Below are positions 7,226 to 10,445 of a DNA stretch of 64,000 nt, one piece after another (position 1 is the first letter of the stretch; each line of letters starts with the position of its first letter). This DNA comes from an uncultured Pelagibacteraceae bacterium (GTDB lineage Bacteria > Pseudomonadota > Alphaproteobacteria > Pelagibacterales > Pelagibacteraceae): positions 124,001 through 188,000 of the forward strand of contig CACNQD010000001.1 of assembly GCA_902622545.1 (NCBI GenBank), written 5' to 3'. The notes under the pieces were generated by a model. That model searched no databases. It saw only the letters and a program-made list of their open reading frames with translations, and was not told where the DNA came from. Made by a program: the position numbers and the translations under genes.

Positions 7226-7765
7226 TTATTTAGCCTTTTTAGTGCTATCTTCTTTAAGACTCTCATCTTTTTTTAAAGACGGAGATTTATCATCCTCAGG
7301 AGTTTCTACTTTATCATCTTTTGTTGTCTGTTTAACAACATTTTCCTCTGTTACTCCCTCAGGTTTTGTCTCTATATCAATACCGATTTTCTTTTTAATT
7401 TTTTCAGCAATTTTTGCTGATTTCCCTGTTCTGTCTCTTAAGTAGTATAATTTAGCTCTTCTTACTTTTCCAGATCTTATGACTTTAATAGTATCAACAA
7501 TTGGACTAAAGAGTGCAAATGTTCTTTCAACTCCTTCGCCAAATGATATTTTTCTTACGGTAAATGAAGAGTTAATGTCTCTATTTTTTTTTGCTATACA
7601 AACGCCCTCAAAATATTGAATTCTTTCTCTCTTTCCTTCTGTAATTCTAACACCAACTTTAATAATATCTCCAGGAAAGAAATCTGGTAATTTTTTTTCT
7701 GCTGAGATTTTCTTTACGTTCTCTCTATTTATTTCTTCAATATTTTTCATTTGTATGTTTATCAA
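7226..7765 (-). CDS. rplS: 50S ribosomal protein L19 with charged C-terminal tail
   Basis: [34 protein letters not shown]...[23 protein letters not shown] core, then an Asp/Glu/Lys-rich tail. Confidence 0.96.
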
Positions 7766-7766
7766 T

Positions 7767-8453
7767 TTAATTCTTTTTATATTTTTGCCACAAGTCTGGT
7801 CTTCGGTGGCGTGTTATAGCCTCTGATTGAGATAAACGCCAGTCTTTAATTTTGCTATGATCTCCTGATAAAAGCACCTCAGGAACTGGTGTTTTTTCCC
7901 ATATTTGTGGTTTTGTATACTGAGGATACTCCAATAAACCATTTTCAAAACTTTCGTCTTTGTACGAATTTTCATTTCCTAGAACACCCGGCACAAGTCT
8001 TAATATGCTATCCAAAATTACGTATGCAGCTGTCTCACCACCTGACAAAATGTAGTCCCCAATACTTATCTCTTCAATACCTCTAGACTCTATGACTCTT
8101 TGGTCAATTCCTTCAAAATGACCACAAAGAATATTTATTTTTTTTTCGTTCAAAAATTTTTTTGCTTTATTTTGGTCAAAAGTCTTTCCTTTAGGTGTTA
8201 AATAAATAATTTTTTCATTTTTTTTTAAATTTTGATCTAGTGCTTTTGCAACTACATCAGGTTTTAAAACCATTCCTTCACCACCTCCGTATGGAGTATC
8301 ATCTACTGTTTTATGCTTATCCTTTGCGTAGTCTCTAATATTGATTACATCCAACTTCCACAAACTTTTCTCAATTGCTCTTCCATAGATACCTTTGCTT
8401 AGAATTCCTGGAAAAAAGTCTGGATATAAAGTGAATATTTTTACTTGAAACAT
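7767..8453 (-). CDS. trmD: tRNA (guanine-N1)-methyltransferase
   Basis: [68 protein letters not shown]. Confidence 0.97.
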
Positions 8454-8914
8454 TATTTTTTATTTTCCTCTGCCTTTGGAGCATCTTTTGGAGCATCAGC
8501 TTTTTTCTCTTCTGCCTTTGGAGCATCTTTTGGAGCTTCAGCTTTTTTCTCTTCTGCCTTTGGAGCATCAGCTTTTTTATCCTCTTTTTTTTCAGCACCT
8601 GCGTCTTGTTTTTTTCTATCTTTTTTTGGAATAGCCTTGTTGGGATTATTACCAGCTGCAGGCATTTCAATTAATTTATTCTCCCCTAAAATTCTTGCAA
8701 CTCTAGTAGTTGGTTTTGCTCCTTGACTTAACCAATATTTAATTCTCTCGGATTCAAGACCTACTCTATCTTTTTTGTCTTTTGGTAACAGTGGATTGAA
8801 ATATCCTAGTTTTTCTATAAATCTTCCATCTCTTGGAAATCTGCTGTCTGCTACAACTATCTTATATACTGGTCTTTTTTTTGTACCGCCCATTGATAAT
8901 CTAAGTTTTAACAT
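8453..8914 (-). CDS. rpsP: 30S ribosomal protein S16 with repetitive C-terminal tail
   Basis: [42 protein letters not shown] core; Lys/Ala/Glu/Pro repeat tail. Confidence 0.95.
8466..8583 (-). repeat. in-frame tandem repeat, ~42-bp (14-aa) period, within the rpsP tail
   Basis: The string tgcctttggagcatc recurs at about 8471, 8513 and 8555 (42-bp spacing). Encodes APKAEEKKA(E/D)APKD-type units. Confidence 0.8.
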
Positions 8915-8927
8915 TTTTTCTCCTTTA

Positions 8928-10286
8928 TTATTTTAATTGATTGAAGAGTTCTGGTGGCAATCCTTTATCCATTAACCCTTTTGTGTTTCCTTTTGACATT
9001 TTTTTCATCATGTCAGACATCATTTTAAATTGTTTTAACAATTTATTGATAGTGGCAATATCTGTACCAGAGCCATTAGCAATTCTTTTTTTTCTTGATC
9101 CATTTATTATTTTAGGATTATCTCTTTCTTGTTTTGTCATTGACAATATTACTGCCTCATTTTGAGTTATAATTTTTTCATCAACTCCTGCTTGATCCAT
9201 TTGTGATTTTAATTTTGAGACACCTGGTAAAAAAGACATTACTCCCTCTATACCACCCATTTTTTTCATTTGTCTTAATTGTGTTAAATAATCATCTAGT
9301 GAAAATTGTCCTTTTTTTAAAGTTTCTTCAGCTTCTTTTAATTTTTCTTCGTCGATGTCTTGTGCTGCTTTCTCAACTAGGGAAACGATATCTCCCATAC
9401 CTAAAATTCTATTTGCAATCCTGTCAGGGTGAAAAATTTCTAGATTTTCAATTTTTTCTCCTATTCCTAAAAATTTGATTGGCACATTAGCAACATGTTT
9501 CATACTAAGTGCTGCACCACCTCTTCCATCTCCATCAGCACGTGTTAAAATTATTCCTGTAAGTTTTACTGTATTTCCAAATTCCTTTGCCACATTAGCA
9601 GCTACTTGACCAGTAAGTGAATCAGCGACCAGTATTGTTTCAGTTGGTTTTATGACTTCCTCTATTTGTTTTATTTCACTCATCATCTGTAAATCGATTT
9701 GTGTTCTTCCAGCGGTATCAAAAATAATAACATCTGAGCCATTAAGGTTTGCAGCCGTTAAGGCTCTTCTGCAAATATCCGTGGGTGTTTGACCTTCTAT
9801 TATTGGCAGTGTTTGAATATTATTTTGCTCACCAAGAACTTTTAATTGGTCTTGAGCAGCAGGACGATAGATATCTAAACTTGCCATCATGATCTTTTTT
9901 TTGTTATTTTTTTCTAAAAATTTAGATAATTTTGCGGTACTAGTTGTCTTACCAGATCCTTGGAGTCCTACCATCATAATTGAAATTGGTGGATTAGATT
10001 TTAAATTAATTTCTTGATTTTTATCACCTAAGAAATTTACAAGCTCGTCATAGACAATTTTTACAACCATCTGCCCAGGAGCTGTTGATCTTAGAATTTC
10101 TTTCCCTAAAACTTTCGGTTTAACATTATTAATAAATTCTTTTGCGACGTCTAAAGAAACATCTGCTTCTAATAGAGCTTGTCTTATTAATCTTAAACCA
10201 TCATCAACCTGACCTTCATCAAGTGATGGTGATTTTTTAAATTTTTCGAGTATACCCTCGAATTTATTTGTTAAATTTTCAAACAT
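8928..10286 (-). CDS. ffh: signal recognition particle protein Ffh
   Basis: [55 protein letters not shown]-terminal M domain MTKQERDNP...KKRIANGSG. Confidence 0.97.
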
Positions 10287-10289
10287 ATT

Positions 10290-10410
10290 TTAATCCAGCA
10301 GTCATCGCACCAGTGGGCGAACCCTCGCTGACTGGTGTCGATCTCTTTGTTTCCAAAGACACCGCAAAATGCTGTTTTTTTGCGGAAGTGGTGAGAAACT
10401 ATAATAGAGG
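10290..10410 (-). ncRNA. candidate structured 5' leader RNA of ffh
   Basis: Nested inverted repeats immediately upstream of ffh: caccagt(10308-10314)/actggtg(10331-10337); ggtgtc(10334-10339)/gacacc(10358-10363) with inner ctttg/caaag; ccgcaaaa(10362-10369)/ttttgcgg(10378-10385). Noticeably more GC-rich than other spacers. Confidence 0.65.
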
Positions 10411-10445
10411 TTCAAAAAGTCAATAAATAAGTTAAGTATAAATAT

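Follow-up and report, generated by a model that had tools for sequence, protein, structure and literature searches.

We tentatively read the RNA element RF01793, on the evidence of sequence comparison, as a leader of the ribosomal-protein type that belongs to the (ffh-)rpsP-(rimM-)trmD-rplS operon, with ribosomal protein S16 as its likeliest regulator, which would act at the hairpin P2 and at a pause-/terminator-like tail behind it. In the window, by which we mean the whole stretch of 64,000 nucleotides of Pelagibacteraceae DNA that was analysed, the element lies upstream of ffh (Table 1). It has a defined architecture that covaries among relatives, a distribution across Alphaproteobacteria and an association with this operon, and in one lineage it is independent of Ffh. 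The element itself is already known, and its assignment and full architecture appear to be new; the name 'ffh' is probably a misnomer for what is probably a ribosomal-protein operon leader RNA instead. An orphan RNA family known since 2009 gains a concrete, testable partner, and the full RNA unit, P0-P1-P2-tail, is defined. If S16 is the ligand, one leader would tie together ribosome synthesis and, in most species, SRP synthesis across Alphaproteobacteria.

Table 1. Features of the leader and of its operon in the window
Feature	Positions	Strand	Details
Probable promoter of the ffh-rpsP-trmD-rplS operon	10396-10423	-	TTGACT 10423-10418 with TATAGT 10403-10398 or TAGTTT 10401-10396
P0, 5'-terminal hairpin	10362-10385	-	CCGCAAAA...TTTTGCGG; changes on both sides at 2 of 4 GC-rich pairs
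P1	10339-10364	-	CGGU-G-UCUUUG[GAAA]CAAAGA-G-AUCG; 10 pairs; 3' end one nt from P2
P2, the Rfam RF01793 hairpin	10308-10337	-	C•C mismatch 10330/10315, A•C 10329/10316
Tail	10295-10307	-	CGATGACTGCTGG; conserved signal YUKG about 10-13 nt after P2
ffh	8928-10286	-	TIGR00959, 564.8 bits
rpsP, ribosomal protein S16 (best candidate regulator)	8453-8914	-	TIGR00002
trmD	7767-8453	-	TIGR00088
rplS, ribosomal protein L19	7226-7765	-	TIGR01024

A cmscan search against Rfam placed RF01793 ('ffh') at 10299-10352 on the reverse strand with 54 bits and an E value of 1.8e-7, so that the leader belongs to the family by covariance-model score (gathering score 35 bits); the match occurs as a single copy across the host genome, and no second Rfam family was found in the leader at loose thresholds. 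The leader also has the described form of the family, a bulged hairpin with two conserved cytosines and a covarying stem upstream of ffh, with 21 nt between P2 and the ffh start. An earlier note, made from the letters of this DNA, had described the spacer as unusually GC-rich, and its GC fraction is indeed about 0.40 against 0.25-0.35 in the flanks. The complementary strands that it quoted are all present: caccagt (10308-10314) with actggtg (10331-10337), ggtgtc (10334-10339) with gacacc (10358-10363), and ccgcaaaa (10362-10369) with ttttgcgg (10378-10385). Read on the ffh strand, the leader folds at -36.4 kcal/mol, compared with -23.9 +/- 3.7 kcal/mol in 200 dinucleotide shuffles (z -3.41), none of which was as stable as the native sequence; the view of the note that it is a structured, probably regulatory leader is borne out. 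The published Pelagibacter motif that the note mentioned is the 'ffh motif' that Meyer et al. (2009, PMC2704228) described upstream of ffh: one bulged hairpin in which two cytosines are conserved, and whose function they left open. Our P2 is the same hairpin in the same genomic place, but the unit defined here includes P0, P1 and the tail as well, the 'bulge' becomes one C•C mismatch and one covarying position, the distribution is wider, and one family has the leader before rpsP without ffh.

An alignment of SAR11 upstream regions, which the note had named among the checks on its claim, shows that the three-hairpin structure covaries. The SAR11 comparison set consisted of 19 non-redundant leaders, and the other leaders were drawn from the whole class Alphaproteobacteria. 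Across the 19 leaders 97.6% of the cells were paired, and changes on both sides of a pair were seen in 38 cells, compared with 11.4 in shuffles. The register of P0 is shared between SAR11 and many other alphaproteobacteria. P1 was paired in 100% of the cells, with changes on both sides at seven of its ten pairs, and its covariation score was 0.445 vs 0.228 in shuffles; its base pairs CGGU with AUCG, its upper stem is variable, and in most SAR11 it contains a G•G mismatch. Outside SAR11 the letters of P1 differ, with the 3' end still near one nucleotide from P2, and the mean hairpin energy at the P1 register was -11.2 kcal/mol vs -5.0 kcal/mol in shuffles (in SAR11, -11.1 vs -1.9 kcal/mol). When four contiguous bottom pairs were demanded, P1 was present in 46 of 67 distinct leaders and in 51 of 258 shuffles. 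A further helix, closing the 5' end on the tail, was considered and dropped, as in SAR11 its own pairs did not outperform swapped ones (p 0.24) and elsewhere the signal was weak (p 0.013).

The strand 10362-10364 is common to the 3' side of P0 and the 5' side of P1, reading CGG here and UGG in other genera, and the hairpin energy peaks at exactly this overlap register both within SAR11 and outside. Both pairings of the shared strand covary, C or U in it being matched by G or A in each of the two partner strands, which may amount to one evolutionary event. The earlier note had proposed two mutually exclusive helices. Mutually exclusive pairing does hold between the 3' strand of P0 and the 5' strand of P1, but not for the pair that the note had chosen: GGTGTC/GACACC has one of its pairs broken in 11 of the 19 relatives, has no pair changed on both sides to compensate, and its covariation did not exceed that of shuffles. 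A small-molecule riboswitch, or the two-state switch in the form first suggested, could draw on the competition of P0 and the P1 base for one strand with both pairings covarying; nevertheless, the alignment holds no large conserved single-stranded pocket and the proposed alternative helix lacks compensation, and we consider either kind of switch highly improbable. Pseudoknots from hairpin loops to the region of the ffh start, also proposed in the note, find no counterpart in the alignment, where the CAGCA loop is not conserved and the loop letters of P0 vary freely.

Most pairs of P2 vary, yet 73 of 74 distinct sequences have C•C at its mismatch; this relaxed count over all loci is the frequency to be used, because most leaders were chosen by Rfam matches and the non-redundant set was chosen by a pattern that fixes C and C at the mismatch. 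The position beside it, which Rfam treats as part of the bulge, reads AC, CG, GU, GC or UA, as expected of a pair or a wobble. Both the C•C (10330/10315) and the adjacent A•C (10329/10316) of the window are protonation-prone, and they are conserved in most leaders. No convincing look-alike of P2 was found in E. coli 16S or 23S rRNA. Behind P2, conservation of YUKG is anchored on the hairpin while the start codon follows P2 by as few as 17 or as many as 121 nt. Because that gap varies and the spacing of YUKG is fixed, YUKG is part of the element rather than of the ribosome site. A T-run (at least five T in eight) follows P2 in 45% of the leaders outside SAR11 vs 10% at random positions, and the same signal is weak in SAR11 (47% vs 28%). 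In some AT-rich alphaproteobacteria (loci L278, L279 and L290) P2 is followed by runs of at least five T, which resembles a full intrinsic terminator before ffh. A boxA-like GCTCTTT was found in 0 of 136 leaders.

These features also bear on a rival explanation, that the leader binds no ligand and that a 5'-terminal stem, stable hairpins and a pause-/terminator-like tail merely set mRNA stability and basal read-through. All 19 non-redundant SAR11 leaders have a -35-like TTGAC(T) at 38-41 nt before P0, and a TTGACT at such a fixed distance suggests that the transcript starts at P0, so that the helices should lie within the mRNA. P0 at the putative 5' end and the U-rich tail after P2 in many alphaproteobacteria are what a ligand-free leader would have; on the other hand, a near-invariant C•C amid changing pairs, together with fixed spacings, resembles recognition rather than mere stability. 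We regard the ligand-free explanation as unlikely, although it deserves serious weight.

Matches to RF01793 were obtained in 273 of 298 SAR11 genomes. Of the 25 misses, 20 were inspected, and all of them lack the 5' end of ffh in the assembly owing to contig breaks; thus, the idea that some SAR11 genomes truly lack the leader was abandoned. Across the class Alphaproteobacteria 112 of 387 genomes had a match. A plain descriptor of P2 with its C•C found the hairpin upstream of ffh in 12 of 20 genomes without an RF01793 match, and the same descriptor gave 0 of 86 hits in genes and 0 of 430 in shuffles. Since these 12 Rfam-negative genomes carry P2, the Rfam model is too narrow, probably because it fixes the position beside the C•C as A•C (loci L273-L290). 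Carriers of the core pattern include Pelagibacteraceae, Rhodobacteraceae, Sphingomonadaceae, Kordiimonas, Caedimonas and Hyphomicrobiales.

The genes that follow the leader are more constant than its name suggests. At all 62 loci where the gene order was read, rpsP and trmD lie downstream; rimM is absent in SAR11, including the window, and in one further genome, ffh is absent in one family, and rplS was not seen at four loci, two of which are cut by contig ends. In the other motif-bearing genomes of the class, rpsP follows the motif on its own strand whenever a single contig carries both, with one exception in which rpsP was not found. As ffh and rimM are variably absent while rpsP and trmD are always kept, the common denominator is S16, TrmD and mostly L19, not Ffh or RimM. 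Nearly all alphaproteobacteria have ffh as the first gene, some of them with rpsP 3.4-5.1 kb downstream, and a leader that stands before ffh in most species must act on ffh there as well. Three genomes have ffh and rpsP at separate places, and no leader was found at either gene there. The SAR11 operon (7226-8914 in the window) lacks rimM, which lies between rpsP and trmD in most other alphaproteobacteria, and trmD overlaps the end of rpsP, both touching 8453.

Rfam types the family as 'sRNA', and the element could be a stand-alone, trans-acting small RNA that is transcribed from the operon promoter and terminated after P2. A short leader RNA has been reported among Bartonella small RNAs, candidate sm5 of S. 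meliloti is a predicted sRNA of about 120 nt, and in Mesorhizobium it is listed as an intergenic transcript. However, in the loci read the element always stands immediately upstream of the same operon, even after ffh loss, and its conserved letters are paired or anchored on hairpins, with no conserved free seed seen. We give an independent small RNA very little credence.

From the geometry of the leader the earlier note had proposed autoregulation of SRP synthesis. On such a reading Ffh, or Ffh free of 4.5S RNA, would bind the leader and repress its own synthesis. Nearly all genomes do have the leader before ffh, and among SAR11 assemblies that include the 5' end of ffh there is effectively no exception. 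Against this stands an alphaproteobacterial family of ten genomes in three genera (1.0-1.4 Mb, 82-97% complete; loci L368-L380). The domain PF00448 (SRP54 domain: Ffh, FtsY, FlhF) was found in 0 of these 10 genomes and in 14 of 14 controls, and with the Ffh of the window as query neither Ffh nor FtsY was found in five of them. To our knowledge, SRP is usually held to be universal. The loss of ffh was probably a single event in a single lineage. Eight of the ten genomes carry the leader, in all eight directly upstream of rpsP, which begins 34-41 nt after P2. P2 is fully paired in this family, with changes on both sides at two pairs, and P1 covaries (CGGU/AUCG, CAGU/AUUG, CAAU/AUUG). One genome reads dapF / leader / rpsP-rimM-trmD-rplS-leuC, that is, the neighbourhood of the window minus ffh and plus rimM. 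This natural deletion of ffh counters the SRP-feedback hypothesis and narrows the candidates to S16, TrmD and L19; because the leader stays with the rpsP operon after ffh is gone, control of ribosomal-protein synthesis rather than SRP sensing is probable. Retention after ffh loss would also be expected of a leader without a ligand.

Resemblance to SRP RNA does not help the SRP proposal either. The only likeness to bacterial SRP RNA (RF00169) is that the first downstream gene encodes the partner of SRP RNA, whereas the helix-8 signature CAGG...GNRA...AGCA, sought as a sign of mimicry, occurs in 0 of 136 leaders, and the host has a normal SRP RNA elsewhere in its genome that carries it. Meyer et al. 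(PMC2704228) likewise describe their motif as unlike the Ffh site of 4.5S RNA. Taken with the family that lacks an SRP GTPase gene, this makes SRP autoregulation improbable.

As a rule, the leader of a ribosomal-protein operon is bound by one of the proteins that the operon encodes. In Flavobacteria S16 has been proposed as the ligand of an r-leader (PMC7247131), which likewise is a structured leader upstream of rpsP(-rimM), although it belongs to another phylum and is likened to ours by context and proposed ligand, not by motif structure. According to a recent review (PMC10931766), the trmD operon is rare among ribosomal-protein operons in having no known regulation. These three points lead us to favour S16 at P1-P2. 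As in an r-leader, the element forms a structured 5' leader, the operon behind it encodes ribosomal proteins (rpsP and rplS), and the secondary structure of the leader is conserved and covarying. It resembles the autoregulatory leaders of ribosomal proteins (L4 attenuation, S15, L20) in its operon-first position, covarying hairpins, conserved mismatch and possible pause or terminator nearby, but differs in having a candidate ligand only and no recognised rRNA look-alike, a trait that is common though not required among r-leaders.

For the ligand, the sign of regulation, the pausing or termination and the strand exchange we infer the following course. Transcription would begin at P0, after which P1 and then P2 would fold in order, and P2, in which the C•C mismatch hardly ever varies, would serve as the recognition element, with that mismatch as a key contact. 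An operon-encoded protein in excess (S16 is the likeliest, ahead of L19 and TrmD) would bind the P1-P2 unit and lower operon expression. The bound protein would probably stabilise a polymerase pause, or else premature termination, at the YUKG tail, which is U-rich outside SAR11; the step from P2 to YUKG is about the distance typical of a hairpin-stabilised pause. Short RNAs from the leader, reported in Bartonella and in metatranscriptomes cited by Meyer et al. (PMC2704228) and predicted in S. meliloti, are in line with this course. In SAR11, with the start codon about 20-30 nt away, ribosome access may also be blocked, and P0/P1 strand exchange may couple the structure of the 5' end to the bound state. 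The most specific version, an alphaproteobacterial S16 autoregulatory leader in which S16 recognises the C•C of P2 and causes RNA polymerase to pause or terminate at YUKG, P0/P1 exchange sets the threshold, and a class-wide regulator of the trmD operon has outlived the loss of the SRP GTPase pair in one lineage, is doubtful in all its parts together.

Two further observations concern S16 and the promoter. In the family without ffh, S16 (L368, 5222-5737) has a long C-terminal extension rich in alanine, proline and glutamate with repeats, and in four assemblies of the family the contig ends no more than about 300 nt past the S16 domain, perhaps at the repeat of this extension. The probable operon promoter at 10396-10423 was not flagged by a plain sigma-70 scan. 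A TATAAT on the forward strand (10400-10405), upstream of the divergent dapF (then ftsY), overlaps it, and the strip 10396-10423 is strongly conserved within the genus; together, this conservation and the TATAAT overlap suggest overlapping divergent promoters.
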